From Streptomyces broussonetiae (GTDB lineage Bacteria; Actinomycetota; Actinomycetes; Streptomycetales; Streptomycetaceae), in NCBI RefSeq assembly GCF_009796285.1, contig NZ_CP047020.1:434001-498000 (forward strand): 64,000 bases of DNA, given 5' to 3'. Under the pieces are notes generated by a model that was given only the letters and a program-made list of their open reading frames with translations, searched no databases and was not told where the DNA came from. Numbering within the stretch: the stretch's first letter is position 1; each line of letters begins with the position of its first letter. Below are positions 39,115 to 64,000 of the stretch, in pieces. Made by a program: the position numbers and the translations under genes.

Positions 39115-39195
39115 TCAGACCCGACAGCGACAGAAGGCGCTGGAAACACGCGCAAGGTCGACGTGGCGTCGCCGCGTGAGGTCCTGTCGCTTCAT
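39115..39195 (-). CDS. Cysteine-containing sulfur leader peptide (26 aa), probably leaderless
   Basis: The ORF reads MKRQDLTRRRHVDLARVSSA then FCRCRV. It belongs to the RRHVDL-xR-xxSA-xC leader peptides found ahead of actinobacterial sulfur genes. It precedes sfnG by 175 bp. The ATG lies 7 nt from the -10 box, so the mRNA should start at or next to the start codon. It probably senses cysteine supply by ribosome stalling at the Cys codons near its end. Confidence 0.85.
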   Translation of the reverse strand: MKRQDLTRRRHVDLARVSSAFCRCRV

Positions 39196-44686: not shown

Positions 44687-44773
44687 TCAGGAGCTACAGA
44701 GGGAGCCGGCCACGCGCTGCAGGTCGATGTGGGGCCGGGAGTGGAGGCGCACGGCACGGAGTACACGTGTCAC
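44687..44773 (-). CDS. Cysteine-containing sulfur leader peptide (28 aa)
   Basis: GTG 44773 follows GGAGG at 8-nt spacing. The peptide ends HSRPHIDLQRVAGSLCSS, matching the RxHIDL-xRV-xxSL-C pattern. It lies 77 bp ahead of the LLM gene at 44610. Unlike the sfnG leader it has its own ribosome site. Confidence 0.8.
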   Translation of the reverse strand: MTRVLRAVRLHSRPHIDLQRVAGSLCSS

Positions 44774-45648: not shown

Positions 45649-46674
45649 TCAGGAGTTGTCGAGCGGCAGGCCCGGCGGGTTGACCTCGGACTTGGCGACG
45701 GCCTCGTTGGAGAGGTCGTACGCCTTGAGCCACTCGGCGTACTGACCGTTCTTGATCAGGTAGTTGATGGCGTCGGCGAGCGGCTTGGCGAGTCCGCTGT
45801 CCTTCTTCGCCGTTGCCGCGATCAGGCCCTGCAGGTTCGCGCCCGCGCCGGAGTAGGTGCCCGCGGTGCGGGTGGCGTTGGGCGTGTTGGCCACCTGACG
45901 GTTGTGGTACGCGAAACCGGGGTTGGGGCCGAAGGAGGCGTCTACCTTGCCGCTGTTCAGGGCCAGGTAGGTGCTGGTGCTGTCCTGGAAGTACTTGACG
46001 GTGAGCTTCTTGCCCTCCTTGGCCAGCTTGTCCTTCCACTCCAGGAGGATCTTCTCCTGGTTGGTTCCGGAGGCGACGGCGATCGTCTTGCCGGCGAGGT
46101 TCTCGTAGTTGCCGTCGAAGTTCCAGGCGCTCTTCTTCGGCACGATGAAGGCGAGGTTGTCCTGCCGGTAGGAGGCGAACTCGTACTTCTTCTTGCGCTC
46201 CTCGGTGTCGGTGACGTTGGCGAAGGCCACGTCGACCTTGCCGCTGTCGATGCCGACGAACAGGTTCTCCCACGTGGAGTTCTTCACCTCGGGCTTGAGA
46301 CCGAACACCGCGGCGACCAGGCGGCCGAGGTCGGGCTCGGAGCCGGTGAGGGTCTTCTGGTCGTTGCCGACGTACGCCAGCGGCGGGAACCCGGTGGGCA
46401 GGGCACCGATGCCGATCTCCAGCTTGCCGCTCTTCTTGACGGCGGCGGGCAGTTCGGCGCTGATGGACTTGACCTCGGAGACCTTGATGGTGGTCTGGGT
46501 GGCGGCGCCGTTGGAGACCCGTCCGATGACGACCTCGCCGGACTTGGCGCTGTCGGTGGTGGTGGCCGCGTCACTGTTGCCACCGCAGGCGGCGAGCCCG
46601 GTGGCCAGGGAGGCGACGGCGGTCGCCGCGGTGATGCCGCGTATCAGGCTGCGTCGGGTGAACTGGGTGGGCAT
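45649..46674 (-). CDS. Amino-acid-type ABC transporter substrate-binding lipoprotein
   Basis: The 341-residue protein has a twin-arginine-like N-terminus (FTRRSLIRGITAATAVASLA) and a lipobox with Cys30 (GLAAC). The family 3 binding fold follows, with IGIGALPTGFPPLAYVGNDQ and DVAFANVTDTEERKKKYEFA. It is encoded with a permease and an ATPase of the polar amino acid uptake family. The SAM-IV riboswitch in the upstream leader points to a sulfur amino acid or precursor such as cystine or methionine as substrate. Confidence 0.92.
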   Translation of the reverse strand: MPTQFTRRSLIRGITAATAVASLATGLAACGGNSDAATTTDSAKSGEVVIGRVSNGAATQTTIKVSEVKSISAELPAAVKKSGKLEIGIGALPTGFPPLAYVGNDQKTLTGSEPDLGRLVAAVFGLKPEVKNSTWENLFVGIDSGKVDVAFANVTDTEERKKKYEFASYRQDNLAFIVPKKSAWNFDGNYENLAGKTIAVASGTNQEKILLEWKDKLAKEGKKLTVKYFQDSTSTYLALNSGKVDASFGPNPGFAYHNRQVANTPNATRTAGTYSGAGANLQGLIAATAKKDSGLAKPLADAINYLIKNGQYAEWLKAYDLSNEAVAKSEVNPPGLPLDNS

Positions 46675-46738: not shown

Positions 46739-47536
46739 TCAGAGGACCTTGCTGAGGAAGTCCCTGGTCCGCTCGTGCCGCGGTTTGTCGAGGACCTCGG
46801 AGGGCGGGCCCTGCTCGACGATCTTGCCGCCGTCGATGAAGACGACCCGGTCGGCTATCTCACGGGCGAAGCCGATCTCGTGGGTGACGATGACGAGGGT
46901 GGTGCCGCTGGTCGCCAGGTCCTTGATGACGGCGAGGACTTCGCCGACCAGTTCAGGGTCCAGGGCGGAGGTGGGCTCGTCGAAGAGGATGACTCCGGGG
47001 CGCAGGGCGAGGGCTCGGGCGATGGCGACGCGCTGCTGCTGGCCGCCGGAGAGCTGGCGCGGGTAGGCGGCGGTCTTGTCGGCGAGGCCGACCCGGACGA
47101 GCAACTCTCGGGCCAGTTCCCGAGCTTCGGGCTTGGTGAGCTTCCCGGTCGCGACCGGGGCCGCGGCCACGTTGTCCAGCACGGTCAGGTGCGGGAAGAG
47201 GTTGAAGTTCTGGAAGACGAAGCCGATCCGGCCGCGCTGGGTGAGGATGGCTCGCTCGCTCAGCTCCTTCAACCGCTCGCCCTGGCGCTTCACGCCGATC
47301 AGCTCGCCGTTGATACTGACGTAGCCGATCTCGGGCTTCTCCAGGTGGTTGATGACCCGCAGCAGGGTGGACTTGCCGGAGCCGGAGGGGCCCAGGATGA
47401 CGGTGACCTCGCCGGGGCGGACGGTCAGGTCGACGCCGTCCAGCACCCGGTGGGTGCCGTACCACTTGTGCACGTCGTGCACCTCGACGGTGGCGGCCTC
47501 GACGTCCGCCAGGGCTTCGAGCGTGTCGGCGGTCAT
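46739..47536 (-). CDS. Amino-acid-type ABC transporter ATPase
   Basis: This 265-residue ATPase has Walker A GPSGSGKS, the Q-loop FVFQNFNLFPHLT, signature LSGGQQQRVAIARAL, Walker B VILFDEPTSALDPE and the H-loop VTHE. It powers the importer with the neighbouring permease and lipoprotein. Its ATG overlaps the permease stop by 4 bp (47533-47536). Confidence 0.96.
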   Translation of the reverse strand: MTADTLEALADVEAATVEVHDVHKWYGTHRVLDGVDLTVRPGEVTVILGPSGSGKSTLLRVINHLEKPEIGYVSINGELIGVKRQGERLKELSERAILTQRGRIGFVFQNFNLFPHLTVLDNVAAAPVATGKLTKPEARELARELLVRVGLADKTAAYPRQLSGGQQQRVAIARALALRPGVILFDEPTSALDPELVGEVLAVIKDLATSGTTLVIVTHEIGFAREIADRVVFIDGGKIVEQGPPSEVLDKPRHERTRDFLSKVL

Positions 47537-48513
47537 ACGGCGGCCTCCCGGCGGATACGGGCCCGCAGGTCGGTCAGACCGGTGCGGAGCTTCTGCAGCG
47601 GCGTCGGCGGCAGGCTGCGGGTGGCACCGCGGGCGTAGTACCGCTCGACGTAGAACTGGACGACGGAGACGACGCTGGTCAGGATCAGGTACCAGACGGT
47701 GACGACCAGCAGCAGCGGCACGATGTCGCCTGGGTAGGTGGAGCCCATGGTCTGCGCGGAGCCGAACAGGTCGAGCAGGGAGACGTAGAAGACCAGCGAG
47801 GTGCCCTTGATCAGGCCGATGAGCTGGTTGACGTAGTTCGGGATGATCGAGCGCAGCGCCTGCGGGAAGACGATCCTGCGGAACTGGTAGCCCTTGGGCA
47901 GGCCGAGCGCCGCGGCCGCCTCGTGCTGCCCCTGGTCGACGGAGAGGATCCCGCCGCGGACCACCTCGGCAGCGTAGGCGGCCTCGTTGAGGCTGAGGCC
48001 GATGACGGCGACGACCATGTCGGTGGCGAGTCTCGACTCGTCGAAGGAGAAGAAGGCCGGGCCGAAGGGGATGCCGACGCTCAACGTCATGTACAGGGCG
48101 CTGAAGTTGTAGAGGAAGATCAGCACCACGATGAGCGGGATGGAACGCAGCGCCCATACGTAGGTCCAGCTGACCGCGCGCAACACCGGGCTCTTCGACA
48201 GCCGGGCCAGGGCGAGCAGAATGCCGCCGATCAGGCCCAGCACCGCGCTGTAGGCGGTGACTTGGAGGGTGATCAGCAGGCCGTCGAGGATGGTGGGGCG
48301 CAGGAACCAGTAGCTCCAGCGGTCCCACTGGTAGAAGGGGTTGGTGACCAGTCCGTGCACGAACTGGGCGACGAGGACCAGCACGACCGCGGTGACGATC
48401 CAGCGACCTGGCCGCCGCAGCGGAAGAACACGCTGGGCGGTGAGGGCTTTTGCCGGTTCGTCGGTGGTCGGCGCCTCGGCGAGGGTGACGGTGGCACCAG
48501 GGGGTTCACTCAT
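47533..48513 (-). CDS. Amino-acid-type ABC transporter permease
   Basis: The 326-residue inner-membrane protein has about six helices and the coupling EAA loop GQHEAAAALGLPKGYQFRRI. The N-terminal 45 residues are cytoplasmic. ATG 48513 (MSEPPGATVTLAEAP) is used rather than the longer frame because the upstream part is proline-rich shadow. It is the first gene after the riboswitch and leader peptide region. Confidence 0.95.
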   Translation of the reverse strand: MSEPPGATVTLAEAPTTDEPAKALTAQRVLPLRRPGRWIVTAVVLVLVAQFVHGLVTNPFYQWDRWSYWFLRPTILDGLLITLQVTAYSAVLGLIGGILLALARLSKSPVLRAVSWTYVWALRSIPLIVVLIFLYNFSALYMTLSVGIPFGPAFFSFDESRLATDMVVAVIGLSLNEAAYAAEVVRGGILSVDQGQHEAAAALGLPKGYQFRRIVFPQALRSIIPNYVNQLIGLIKGTSLVFYVSLLDLFGSAQTMGSTYPGDIVPLLLVVTVWYLILTSVVSVVQFYVERYYARGATRSLPPTPLQKLRTGLTDLRARIRREAAV

Positions 48514-48658: not shown

Positions 48659-48751
48659 TCAGCCCCGACAGCGGGCGCGGCCCGGTGCGGTACACAGTGC
48701 GCTGTTCACGCGGAGCAGATCGACGGCACGGTCGGCGACGAGCAGGTTCAC
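48659..48751 (-). CDS. Cysteine-containing sulfur leader peptide (30 aa)
   Basis: From GTG 48751 the peptide reads VNLLVADRAVDLLRVNSALC then TAPGRARCRG. R-AVDL-LRV-NSAL-C fits the leader pattern, though the usual His is Ala. It lies 146 bp ahead of the permease gene and about 115 bp after the SAM-IV riboswitch in the same transcript. No strong ribosome site is visible; an in-frame ATG near 48820 is an alternative start. Confidence 0.65.
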   Translation of the reverse strand: MNLLVADRAVDLLRVNSALCTAPGRARCRG

Positions 48752-48864
48752 GTACGGCCGTACGCAGCCCTGCGGGCGGCGCGTCGCCGTCCTGGGAGCT
48801 GCGTACATGGCGTCACCGTCACTGTTCCGGCCCTGTGGGCCTCGCGCTTACCGAAACGTCATCC

Positions 48865-48950
48865 GGTCCGGTCGTCACCTGGGGCACCCCACCGCGGCGC
48901 GAGGGTTGCCGGTCAGCAAGCCAGGGCTTGTCGCTGACGCTCATGACCGT
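48865..48950 (-). ncRNA. SAM-IV riboswitch
   Basis: The minus strand reads GGTCATGAGCGTCAGCGACA, then AGCCCTGGCTTGCTGACCGG and CAACCCTCGC, then GGTGGGGTGCCCCAGGTGAC. GTCAGC pairs with GCTGAC (P2). CCTGG in the P2 loop can pair with CCAGG after P3 (pseudoknot), and GGTC pairs with GACC (P1). The ACCGGCAACCC core is the conserved SAM-binding part. SAM-IV riboswitches turn down sulfur genes when S-adenosylmethionine is high. It begins about 13 bp after a strong promoter and precedes an ABC importer. Confidence 0.85.
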
Positions 48951-48960
48951 TCTGAGCCGT

Positions 48961-48990
48961 AATTAAGACAACGGCCCGAACATATGTCAA
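48961..48990 (-). promoter_or_regulatory. Promoter of the SAM-IV-controlled importer
   Basis: TTGACA (minus strand, 48985-48990), 18 bp, then TTAATT (48961-48966). The predicted transcript start lies just before the riboswitch. Confidence 0.7.
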
Positions 48991-55359: not shown

Positions 55360-55437
55360 TCAGCGACAACAAAACGCGCTGGAGACGTGCGCCAGATCGA
55401 TGGGGCGCCGCCGAGTGAGTTCCACGCGCGGGTTCAT
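55360..55437 (-). CDS. Cysteine-containing sulfur leader peptide (25 aa), probably leaderless
   Basis: The ORF reads MNPRVELTRRRPIDLAHVSS then AFCCR. The RRRPIDLAHVSSAF core closely matches the sfnG leader, and it ends with adjacent Cys codons. It lies 333 bp ahead of tauD in the same direction. The predicted -10 box is 8 nt from the ATG, so the transcript may begin at the start codon. Confidence 0.85.
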   Translation of the reverse strand: MNPRVELTRRRPIDLAHVSSAFCCR

Positions 55438-58109: not shown

Positions 58110-58226
58110 ATGCACGTACTGGGCGCGGCACCGCGCGGTGCGTGCACCGGTGCGCGGCTCGTCACCCGGCGGCATGTCGACTACTGCCGTACCTCCTCCG
58201 CCGTCTGTCCTTCCGTACACGCCTGA
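58110..58226 (+). CDS. Cysteine-containing sulfur leader peptide (38 aa)
   Basis: ATG 58110 follows GGAGG. The C-terminal half reads LVTRRHVDYCRTSSAVCPSV and then HA, matching the RRHVD-xxR-xSSAV-C leader pattern, with an extra Cys before Arg. It lies 80 bp ahead of the LLM monooxygenase gene. Confidence 0.85.
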   Translation: MHVLGAAPRGACTGARLVTRRHVDYCRTSSAVCPSVHA

Positions 58227-61900: not shown

Positions 61901-62725
61901 ATGACCACCGAGGCCGCCACCACGGACCTCCACGCCTTCACCGAGACCTGGCTGGAGTGGTACCGAGCCCAGGAGGCCCGGCTCGCCGCCCCGCACGGGT
62001 TCCTGGCGATCACCGGCCTGCACTGGCTCGACGACCGACCCCAGCGCTTCCCGGACGCGCCCGGCGCGTGGCGCACCGGCCCCGAAGGCGTCGTCGTAGA
62101 CCTCGACGACGCCGAGGAATTGGTCGTCGACGGGGCGCCGGTGCGCGGCGAGCACCGCTTCGGCGTGCTTCCCGAGCGCGGCGGCGTCGACGCCCTCTGG
62201 GGAGACGCCGTCATCGAGGTCGCCAGGCGCGGCGGCCAGGACATCGTGCGCCCCCGGCACCCGGACGCGCCGCTGCGCACGGCTTTCACCGGAACGCCCG
62301 CCTACGCCCCCGACCCGCGCTGGGCCGTGACGGGCCGCTACATCCCCTTCGACACTCCGCGGCCGACCACCGTGGGCGCCGCGGTCGAGGGCCTTGAGCA
62401 TGTCTACGACGCCCCGGGCAGAGTCGAGTTCGAACTCGACGGGCGCCCGCTGTCGCTGACCGCGTTCCCCGGCCACGGTGCGGGACGGCTGATGGTGCTG
62501 TTCACCGACGAGACCTCCGGGGTCACCACCTACGCCGCCAACCGGGCCCTGGCCCTCGATCCGCCCGCCGCCGACGGTACGGTCGCCCTGGACTTCAACC
62601 GTGCCACCAACCTGCCGTGCGCCTACACGGACCTGGCCACCTGCCCGCTGCCCCCAGTCGAGAACCGGCTGCCGGTGGCGATCGAAGCCGGTCAGAAGAT
62701 CCCCCGCGAGCGCGGCGGCTCCTGA
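61901..62725 (+). CDS. DUF1684 protein
   Basis: This 274-residue soluble protein has the DUF1684 core: WLEWYRAQEARLAAPHGFLA, TGLHWLDDRPQRFPDAPGAW, then LDFNRATNLPCAYTDLATCP, LPPVENRLPVAIEAGQK. Its ending N-R-x-x-N-P/L-x-C-A-Y with two Cys is typical. The biochemical role is unknown. It has a good AAAGGAG ribosome site and sits at the end of a monooxygenase operon, so a part in organosulfur breakdown is possible but untested. A run of 11 C residues lies just upstream. Confidence 0.88.
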   Translation: MTTEAATTDLHAFTETWLEWYRAQEARLAAPHGFLAITGLHWLDDRPQRFPDAPGAWRTGPEGVVVDLDDAEELVVDGAPVRGEHRFGVLPERGGVDALWGDAVIEVARRGGQDIVRPRHPDAPLRTAFTGTPAYAPDPRWAVTGRYIPFDTPRPTTVGAAVEGLEHVYDAPGRVEFELDGRPLSLTAFPGHGAGRLMVLFTDETSGVTTYAANRALALDPPAADGTVALDFNRATNLPCAYTDLATCPLPPVENRLPVAIEAGQKIPRERGGS

Positions 62726-62776
62726 GCTGGACGCACTCTCGCCCCGACTCCCCATACAAGGCGTCCTTTTGCGCCA

Positions 62777-62806
62777 TTGACGTACGACAAGACCGCTCCG
62801 TACGAT
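62777..62806 (+). promoter_or_regulatory. Promoter of the second SAM-IV transcript
   Basis: TTGACG (62777-62782), 18 bp, TACGAT (62801-62806). The expected transcript start is at about 62813, where the riboswitch begins. Confidence 0.75.
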
Positions 62807-62811
62807 CACGA

Positions 62812-62905
62812 ACGGCATTGAGTGTCAGCGTCAAGCCCTGGCTCGCTGACCGGCAACCCTCCCACGCGGTGGGGTGCTCCAGGTGAAAGCCCGGCGGGAT
62901 CACCG
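62812..62905 (+). ncRNA. SAM-IV riboswitch
   Basis: GTCAGCG (P2 5' side) pairs with CGCTGAC, enclosing a loop with CCTGG that can pair with CCAGG downstream (pseudoknot). CCCAC and GTGGG form P3, and the conserved core ACCGGCAACCC is present. GGC and GCC close P1. Its sequence is nearly the same as the copy at 48865-48950. High SAM should reduce expression of the following genes. Confidence 0.85.
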
Positions 62906-62961
62906 ATGATGTCCGCAAGCGCGTGGCCCCGTGACCGGGGCCGGATATGTGGAGGACCGAT

Positions 62962-63078
62962 ATGCGGCACGGTGGTGACCTCAGCGCCCGCTTCACCGGC
63001 GCCACCGTGTTCTCCCGGCTCTCGCGCCGGCGTCACATCGACCTCAAGCGCTCGACCAGCTGTCTCTGTCAGGCCTGA
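62962..63078 (+). CDS. Cysteine-containing sulfur leader peptide (38 aa)
   Basis: ATG 62962 follows GGAGG at 6-nt spacing. The end of the peptide is FSRLSRRRHIDLKRSTSCLC and then QA, with two Cys codons close together, matching the other leaders. It lies about 55 bp after the SAM-IV riboswitch and 214 bp before the transporter gene. AGGCC and GGCCT around the stop could form a small hairpin. Confidence 0.85.
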   Translation: MRHGGDLSARFTGATVFSRLSRRRHIDLKRSTSCLCQA

Positions 63079-63292
63079 CGGGCCTTCCCGCCGCTGGTCG
63101 CAGTACGGCATCTGTCGTCGCACCCGCCTGCGCCTGATCTCCGTCTGTCTTTGATCCCCCCTTTTCGCTCTGCTCCCCGTCTGCACAGCGCTCCCTCGGC
63201 ACCGGCGTCGCGCCGGCCGGGGCCGCACGCCCACGCACGGCCGTGCCCTGCACCACACCCGTGCCTGGTGACACGAGTAGGAGAAGCCCTCC

Positions 63293-64000
63293 GTGACTGC
63301 ACTTTCCGATGTCAGAACCTCCCGGTGGGCGGCACTGACCGCCCTTGTGACCACCAGTGTTCTGCTGACCGCCTGCGGCTCCGGCGGCGGCGGTTCCGGC
63401 AGCGGCGCCGGGCAGCCCAAGTCCGGCGGCACCCTGACCTTCGCGGTGGGTTCGGACGCCGGCTGCGTGGATCCGCAGCAGGTCGCCAGCAACGAGACCA
63501 TCTACTCGGTGCGCCAGATCGTGGACTCCCTGACGGACCAGGACCCGAAGACCGGCAAGATCGTGCCGTGGCTGGCGAAGAGCTGGAAGGTCAGTTCCGA
63601 CGCCACGACGTTCACGTTCCATCTGAGGTCGGGTGTCACCTTCAGCGACGGCTCGAAGCTGACCGCGCAGGTCGTCAAGGACAACTTCGACGCGGTGCCT
63701 AAGCTCGGCGCCCTGGGGACGCTCGCCGAGGGCTACCTGAGCGGCGTCAAGAGCACCACGGCGGTCGACCCGCTCACCGTCAAGGTGACCTTCAGCCAGC
63801 CCAACGCCCAGTTTCTGCAGGCGACTTCGACCCACTCGCTGGGGATCGAGTCGTCGGCGAGCGTGAAGGAGACCCCGCAGCAGAAGTGCAGCGACGGGGT
63901 GATCGGATCCGGGCCCTTCGTGCTGAAGCAGTACGTGCAGAACCAGTCGATCACCCTGACCAAGCGCACGGGATACACGTGGGGTTCCTCGCGGTGGAGC
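63293..64000 (+). CDS. ABC transporter substrate-binding lipoprotein, peptide/nickel family (3' end outside window)
   Basis: GTG 63293 follows GTAGGAGAAG. The product has a signal peptide and lipobox with Cys28 (VLLTAC), then the family 5 binding fold: GGTLTFAVGSDAGCVDPQQV, FTFHLRSGVTFSDGSKLTAQ and PFVLKQYVQ. This family binds oligopeptides, nickel or glutathione-like molecules. Control by a SAM-IV riboswitch and a Cys leader suggests a sulfur-containing peptide or conjugate. The frame is open to the end of the window at residue 236 of about 530. Confidence 0.92.
   Translation, partial: MTALSDVRTSRWAALTALVTTSVLLTACGSGGGGSGSGAGQPKSGGTLTFAVGSDAGCVDPQQVASNETIYSVRQIVDSLTDQDPKTGKIVPWLAKSWKVSSDATTFTFHLRSGVTFSDGSKLTAQVVKDNFDAVPKLGALGTLAEGYLSGVKSTTAVDPLTVKVTFSQPNAQFLQATSTHSLGIESSASVKETPQQKCSDGVIGSGPFVLKQYVQNQSITLTKRTGYTWGSSRWS

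Follow-up and report, generated by a model that had tools for sequence, protein, structure and literature searches.

A SAM-IV riboswitch and a cysteine leader ORF in series before sulfur-related genes of Streptomyces: a candidate two-input gate

Riboswitches and leader-peptide attenuators are usually viewed as separate solutions. A locus of Streptomyces broussonetiae, in which one of each stands in a single predicted transcript before the operon of a predicted sulfur-compound transporter, raises the question of whether the two sensors act side by side or through each other. The window analysed here is the whole 64,000-nucleotide stretch of contig NZ_CP047020.1 (assembly GCF_009796285.1, positions 434,001 to 498,000, forward strand), and coordinates refer to it unless stated otherwise. 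The initial annotation of this DNA had proposed an AND-type switch reading methionine and cysteine status separately, an interpretation that is partly supported by the sequence comparisons below. With modest confidence, we lean towards the reading that the aptamer and the cysteine leader together form a two-input gate, in which the operon would be on only if SAM and cysteine are in short supply at the same time. The locus at the end of the window, called unit 1, has the following features.

62777..62806, plus strand: promoter-like site, TTGACG - 18 nt - TACGAT (sigma-70-like scan)
62814..62927, plus strand: SAM-IV aptamer (RF00634, cmscan, 91.7 bits)
62925..62942, plus strand: hairpin GGCCCC/GGGGCC in the interval between aptamer and leader (RNAalifold, 40 sequences)
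62951..62955, plus strand: Shine-Dalgarno (SD) sequence GGAGG of the leader ORF (from the sequence)
62962..63078, plus strand: leader ORF of 38 codons, MRHGGDLSARFTGATVFSRLSRRRHIDLKRSTSCLCQA, with ATG at 62962 and stop at 63076-63078 (NF042934)
63293..64000, plus strand: SBP_bac_5 transporter binding protein, first gene of the operon, starting with GTG and running past the window (Pfam)

The promoter, aptamer, short cysteine leader ORF and ABC transporter that had been claimed for this locus were each recovered. The promoter-like site is the only sigma-70-like match in 62600-63400 (50 shuffles gave a mean of 0.0), is well conserved across aligned orthologues, and places the predicted start on the aptamer's first bases (about 62812-62814). 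As to a transcription start between riboswitch and leader ORF, which had been named as a point against their belonging together, the sequence scan found no promoter-like site there, the sole one lying upstream. The gathering score of RF00634 is 38; a cmscan of the whole window gave two gathering-level matches, each SAM-IV and each spanning the full model (positions 1-116). The Rfam scan of the unit 1 leader returned this single match and no second aptamer, so that the leader is not a tandem riboswitch. The leader ORF matches the “putative leader peptide” family NF042934 at 29.3 bits, over the cut-off of 27, and its C-terminal end is RRRHIDLKRSTSCLCQA, followed by the stop. Its two Cys codons, TGT at 63061-63063 and TGT at 63067-63069, are separated by one codon; they lie close to the stop and sulfur genes follow downstream, as is characteristic of the NF042934 leader peptides. 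The ORF begins 34 nt behind the aptamer, about 150 nt beyond the predicted 5′ end of the transcript, and the transporter gene begins 365 nt from the aptamer. The binding protein is 539 aa long and is followed by a permease, an ABC ATPase and a luciferase-like monooxygenase. P1 of unit 1 and its class reads GGCAU...AGCC versus the usual GGUCA...GACC, with one mismatch adjoining the pocket, and this variant counts against the gate reading.

A second unit, absent from the initial annotation (48948-48659, minus strand), has the same design as unit 1 on the opposite strand and precedes an amino-acid-type ABC transporter.

48961..48990, minus strand: promoter-like site, TTGACA - 18 nt - TTAATT (by eye)
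48839..48948, minus strand: SAM-IV aptamer with canonical P1 (RF00634, 98.5 bits)
48659..48808, minus strand: leader ORF of 49 codons, ATG at 48808, ending in VADRAVDLLRVNSALCTAPGRARCRG before the stop (leader HMM, 17.9 bits)
47533..48513, minus strand: BPD_transp_1 permease, first gene behind the unit (Pfam)
46739..47536, minus strand: ABC transporter ATPase behind the unit
45649..46674, minus strand: SBP_bac_3 binding protein behind the unit (Pfam)

The HMM that scored this leader is a profile from 12 leaders free of SAM-IV. The ORF contains VADRAVDLLRVNSALC, and NF042934 gave it 20.4 and 18.3 bits in two runs, both below the cut-off of 27. That both units of the window share one design supports the gate reading. 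Stretches resembling NF042934 occur at six places in the window, three over the cut-off and three under it. Four more Cys leader motifs are found in the window without a gathering-level SAM-IV, at 39130-39180 (minus), 44696-44752 (minus), 55369-55419 (minus) and 58155-58208 (plus). Near both units lie more luciferase-like monooxygenases, a TauD dioxygenase and an NMT1-type transporter, and the region looks like an organosulfur scavenging island. Among the matches listed for the same genome there is one further SAM-IV beyond the window, at 2970224-2970340.

Relatives of the unit 1 binding protein were collected as the best 80 of 90 matches, which gave 79 loci, the closest named relatives among them being Streptomyces. 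The unit 1 leader class comprised 44 sequences including the window. Of the 43 leader-bearing loci besides the window, 42 were scanned with Rfam and one (L151) was assigned by pattern alone. The aptamer and the leader, which the annotation had placed in series in one predicted transcript, were kept together in 40 of the 42 scanned Streptomyces loci in this set of the best 80 of 90 matches, SAM-IV being barely over the cut-off in two of the 40 (L118 and L121). The other two, L127 and L131, retain leader and transporter and have no SAM-IV, and are counted against the gate reading. In L131 (2500-2570), a natural aptamer loss, the leader is separated from the gene before it by only about 50 nt, and both promoter and aptamer are missing. 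Two further loci, from Trujillonella (L138) and Blastococcus (L139), have the aptamer and a leader of a different type. By pattern, the remaining 34 loci of the best 80 of 90 matches have the leader alone in seven cases and neither element in 27.

The linkage was then viewed from the side of the aptamer. RF00634 was searched in 101 Streptomyces genomes, drawn evenly from a larger group, and was present in 98 of them under stricter filters. The 40 lowest of the matches listed served as candidate accessory copies. L069 and L073 among them were counted as housekeeping because they carry the housekeeping micro-ORF described below, which left 38 accessory copies, the two of the window included. The 330 nt behind each aptamer were scored with the leader HMM built from 12 leaders without an adjacent SAM-IV. 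With a threshold of 13 bits, this HMM detected a leader at 34 of these 38 accessory copies among the matches listed and at none of the 36 housekeeping copies examined (top score 1.7). The four accessory copies without one (L079, L081, L082 and L085) each lie close before another reading frame. The HMM was also positive at six of 40 sites from other actinobacterial genera, in five families; these sites were hand-picked for spread among the matches listed and are thus not a random sample. At a threshold of 8 bits or more, the accessory stretches gave 0 of 38 antisense and 0 of 760 shuffled matches, and all sites together gave 0 of 114 antisense and 3 of 2280 shuffled matches. With 14.6 bits, the best shuffle outscored the weakest of the 34 leaders (13.2) and drew level with the weakest of those from other genera (14.6). 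The 34 leaders fall into classes A (14), B (8), C (2) and D (9) with one other, counts that reflect the by-eye reassignment of one class A leader; with so few classes, the 34 leaders do not amount to as many independent events. The pairing of aptamer and leader is confirmed as general and beyond chance.

The genes behind the tandem units that were tested were identified by Pfam as BPD_transp_1 in class A, SBP_bac_5 in classes B and C, and GST_C_2 in class D. Other tandem units precede luciferase-like monooxygenases (L062, L201), a cysteine dioxygenase (L179), an SBP_bac_3 protein (L207) and an FMN reductase (L211), and the gene behind the housekeeping SAM-IV is a class-V aminotransferase. Back-to-back SAM-IV pairs on opposite strands, about 100-130 nt apart, were seen at L067 (G040 8784920-8785304) and in a second genome (G138 C16:1956-2291).

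The position of the leader bears on what the aptamer controls. Across the 40 tandem sites, the distance between aptamer end and leader start is 14-43 nt with a median of 34, the starts having been picked by the author from scored SD/start candidates. Of the 34 non-tandem sites of other genera, 33 have their first SD-led start at 9-84 nt behind the aptamer, also with a median of 34; the distance is less than 20 nt at 11 sites, and a few of these first ORFs are short themselves. Short SD-led ORFs follow SAM-IV at three other-genus sites (L177, L180 and L198), reading MSCQRMPRR-stop, MTCRMPF-stop and a 57-codon ORF starting MCRCW. In the tandem units, the first ORF to follow the aptamer is short and conserved, as in the case of a riboswitch-controlled upstream ORF (uORF). 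The leader ORF is the nearest target of the aptamer by position, because it lies 34 nt away versus 365 nt for the transporter; therefore the two sensors are probably coupled, not read separately.

The opposite arrangement would be two independent switches in series, in which SAM-IV ends or spares transcription alone and the cysteine leader acts on what passes. The outcome would likewise be on only if both were low, with the riboswitch not controlling leader translation. Leaders found without SAM-IV and SAM-IV found without leaders agree with such independence, and so do the hairpin that lies between aptamer and leader in 40 aligned orthologues, with two of its six pairs changed on both sides, and the premature transcripts that the accessible part of a report describes at the S. 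clavuligerus SAM-IV before a class-V aminotransferase. However, neither a terminator-like site nor an intrinsic terminator was found in 62600-63400, the sequence behind the aptamer, hairpin included, is not more stable than shuffles in classes A to D, and the leader starts where the first ORF begins behind other SAM-IV copies. We regard the independent series as rather unlikely. Stability behind the aptamer exceeded that of shuffles in the housekeeping class alone (mean z -2.05, 30 loci).

Two structural proposals were tried and rejected. The first was sequestration of the ribosome-binding site (RBS) of the transporter gene, folded in 37 of 44 orthologues, seven having no SD by pattern. SD partners UUCUCC in the leader and CUCC behind the SD recurred; the SD pairing had a mean of 0.81 versus 0.83 in shuffles, with 21 of 40 above, and was dropped as evidence because it did not exceed shuffles. 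The second, suggested by RNAalifold, paired the 5′ strand of P1 with the start of the leader; compared with shuffles, it gained less than 1 kcal/mol in class A, class D and the other class, and did worse in classes B and C. In the unit 1 class, GCAU of P1 (62814-62818) is complementary to AUGC at the leader start (62962-62965); the proposed pairing covers the start codon, which is conserved regardless. No strong SD of the AGGAGG type is present in class A leaders. As RBS occlusion was not found in the folding tests, Rho-linked control is about as likely.

The leader ORF is conserved as coding sequence. Pairwise codon differences within the motif of 43 sequences were 68% synonymous versus 25% for random single changes, a comparison that is descriptive because the sequences are related; L128 was excluded because its motif is one codon shorter. 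All 44 orthologous leaders from the best 80 of 90 matches carry H, I, D, L and R unchanged. In the same 44, the final Cys codon is always TGT, and the penultimate Cys position is TGT in 23, TGC in 19 and Ser in two. UGU is rare in these genomes: TGT makes up 8 of 58 Cys codons in own genes and 0 of 120 Cys codons in the binding proteins of 40 orthologous loci. The final Cys codon of the 40 tandem leaders is TGT in 32, TGC in three and absent in five; the script had given 29, three and seven with one unparsed, and L005, L066 and L080 were corrected by eye. By eye, the conserved Cys is also TGT in 11 of 12 leaders without SAM-IV from the same genome, so that the rare UGU encodes the conserved Cys of these leaders nearly always, riboswitch present or not. 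By analogy with classical attenuators, so rare a codon as UGU may sharpen the read-out of Cys-tRNA charging here.

The Cys codons are not universal. Five of the 34 Streptomyces leaders (L067 on the minus strand, L086, L088, L090 and L092) have no Cys and end in SSAY before the stop, reading MPRNGLTRRLHIDLLRVSSAY or close variants with the motif intact, and four further leaders of the same class have Cys elsewhere; in this class, the tested member L087 precedes a GST_C_2-domain gene. These Cys-free and Cys-shifted leaders count against the gate reading and against a simple cysteine reading. They suit the idea that RRxHIDLxRxxS is a nascent-chain or RNA element in which Cys is incidental and the codons do not sense cysteine, for they keep the motif (MPRNGLTRRLHIDLLRVSSAY scores 31.8 bits with NF042934), and the 40 tandem leaders share an invariant D and L together with an almost invariant R and S. 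An incidental Cys is nevertheless hard to square with the TGT counts given above for the 44 orthologues and the 40 tandem leaders, and the peptides resemble mycobacterial Cys-rich leader families, although they score below the cut-offs of those families. We therefore consider this explanation quite improbable. We give even less credence to the notion that the riboswitch regulates a small-protein gene whose peptide acts in trans, the ORF sensing nothing. Conserved small ORFs under riboswitch control, with unclear roles, are known in M. tuberculosis from the accessible parts of the papers cited below; against this, the N-terminal half of the leaders varies in sequence and length with the motif end retained, and different leader classes precede different sulfur-related genes.

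The two-input gate towards which we lean would work as follows. Binding of SAM to the aptamer would block initiation at the leader ORF, a sign chosen by analogy, as most SAM switches turn down their own gene; SAM would thus lower leader translation. An untranslated leader would leave the operon off, via a default structure or Rho. At low SAM, translation of the leader would proceed, and if Cys-tRNA were plentiful the ribosome would reach the stop and the operon would again be off. A ribosome held at the Cys codons would be the sole state that lets the operon proceed. Effects of stalled versus absent ribosomes have reportedly been described at mycobacterial Cys leaders; those assumed here would be borrowed from such leaders and from the riboswitch-uORF pairs of M. 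tuberculosis. The linkage counts, the synonymous leader changes, the TGT bias, the position of the leader start and the sulfur-type genes downstream all support the gate, and the M. tuberculosis cases and the premature ends at the S. clavuligerus SAM-IV, as far as the accessible texts describe them, may lend it support by analogy.

In 36 of 36 housekeeping SAM-IV loci examined (L006 and 35 more), the aptamer is followed after 13-63 nt by a micro-ORF reading M-x-(K/Q)-R-M-(R/C)-stop, mostly MSKRMR; the S. broussonetiae copy is found near 2970224, beyond the window. Part of its conservation is seen in the nucleotides themselves, and the element may therefore be an RNA motif. As a tentative and rather doubtful extension, the SAM-IV of Streptomyces might be a licence for ribosome sensors, permitting initiation at a Cys leader ahead of accessory sulfur-scavenging operons or at the conserved Met micro-ORF M-x-K/Q-R-M-R ahead of the housekeeping gene; RNA sensing and ribosome sensing would thus be linked in one AND gate, assembled repeatedly in actinobacteria.

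Both components of the pair are known, and the comparisons with published systems that follow hold for the accessible parts of the sources. SAM-IV copies of other genera stand mostly straight before a coding gene, whereas here a leader ORF intervenes; both aptamers otherwise match RF00634 over its full length and above its gathering score, unit 1 with a variant and unit 2 with a canonical P1. With the actinobacterial Cys leaders (NF042934; Ms4527A, Ms5788A; PMC1262725), the units share a short ORF, Cys codons near the stop, sulfur genes next to it and the lack of a clear terminator. The tested mycobacterial leader ORFs are leaderless, in contrast to the unit 1 ORF, which has an SD and sits behind the aptamer, preceded in turn by the promoter-like site. 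Scores of the unit 1 leader against Ms4527A and Ms5788A were 23.1 and 14 bits, below the curated cut-off of 45. The mechanism of the mycobacterial Cys leaders has been termed translation attenuation (PMC13236596), and Rho-linked control has been proposed for Cys leaders (Seliverstov 2005; PMC1262725). The annotation of S. lividans gives SAM-IV and leader peptides as separate entries.

The B12 (PMC11260477) and Mbox (PMC12810186) riboswitches of M. tuberculosis have in common with the units a small translated ORF that lies either behind the aptamer or inside it; control is translational in both and involves Rho in Mbox. Unlike the proposed cysteine leader, these uORFs are not described as amino-acid sensors, and the accessible text of the two papers makes no mention of SAM-IV or cysteine. 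Tandem riboswitches (PMC9481103) likewise place two inputs on one leader, although the second sensor here would be a translating ribosome, and two inputs also meet on the leader of a SAM-I riboswitch that additionally reads initiator tRNA (PMC7270179). Leader peptides, uORFs and attenuators are not mentioned in the accessible text of PMC9481103, nor leader peptides or uORFs in that of a second paper on contiguous or tandem riboswitches. A literature search, mostly at title level and with few subscription papers, did not find the pair of SAM-IV and Cys leader reported.

Natural variants of the arrangement exist in which Cys is lost, the aptamer is lost or the leader is absent. If the gate reading is true, Streptomyces would possess an AND gate for sulfur status built from RNA and the ribosome alone. 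It would guard organosulfur scavenging genes, which are wasteful when methionine or cysteine is available, and it would provide a clear function for a riboswitch-controlled uORF, a matter left open in the Mbox case of M. tuberculosis.
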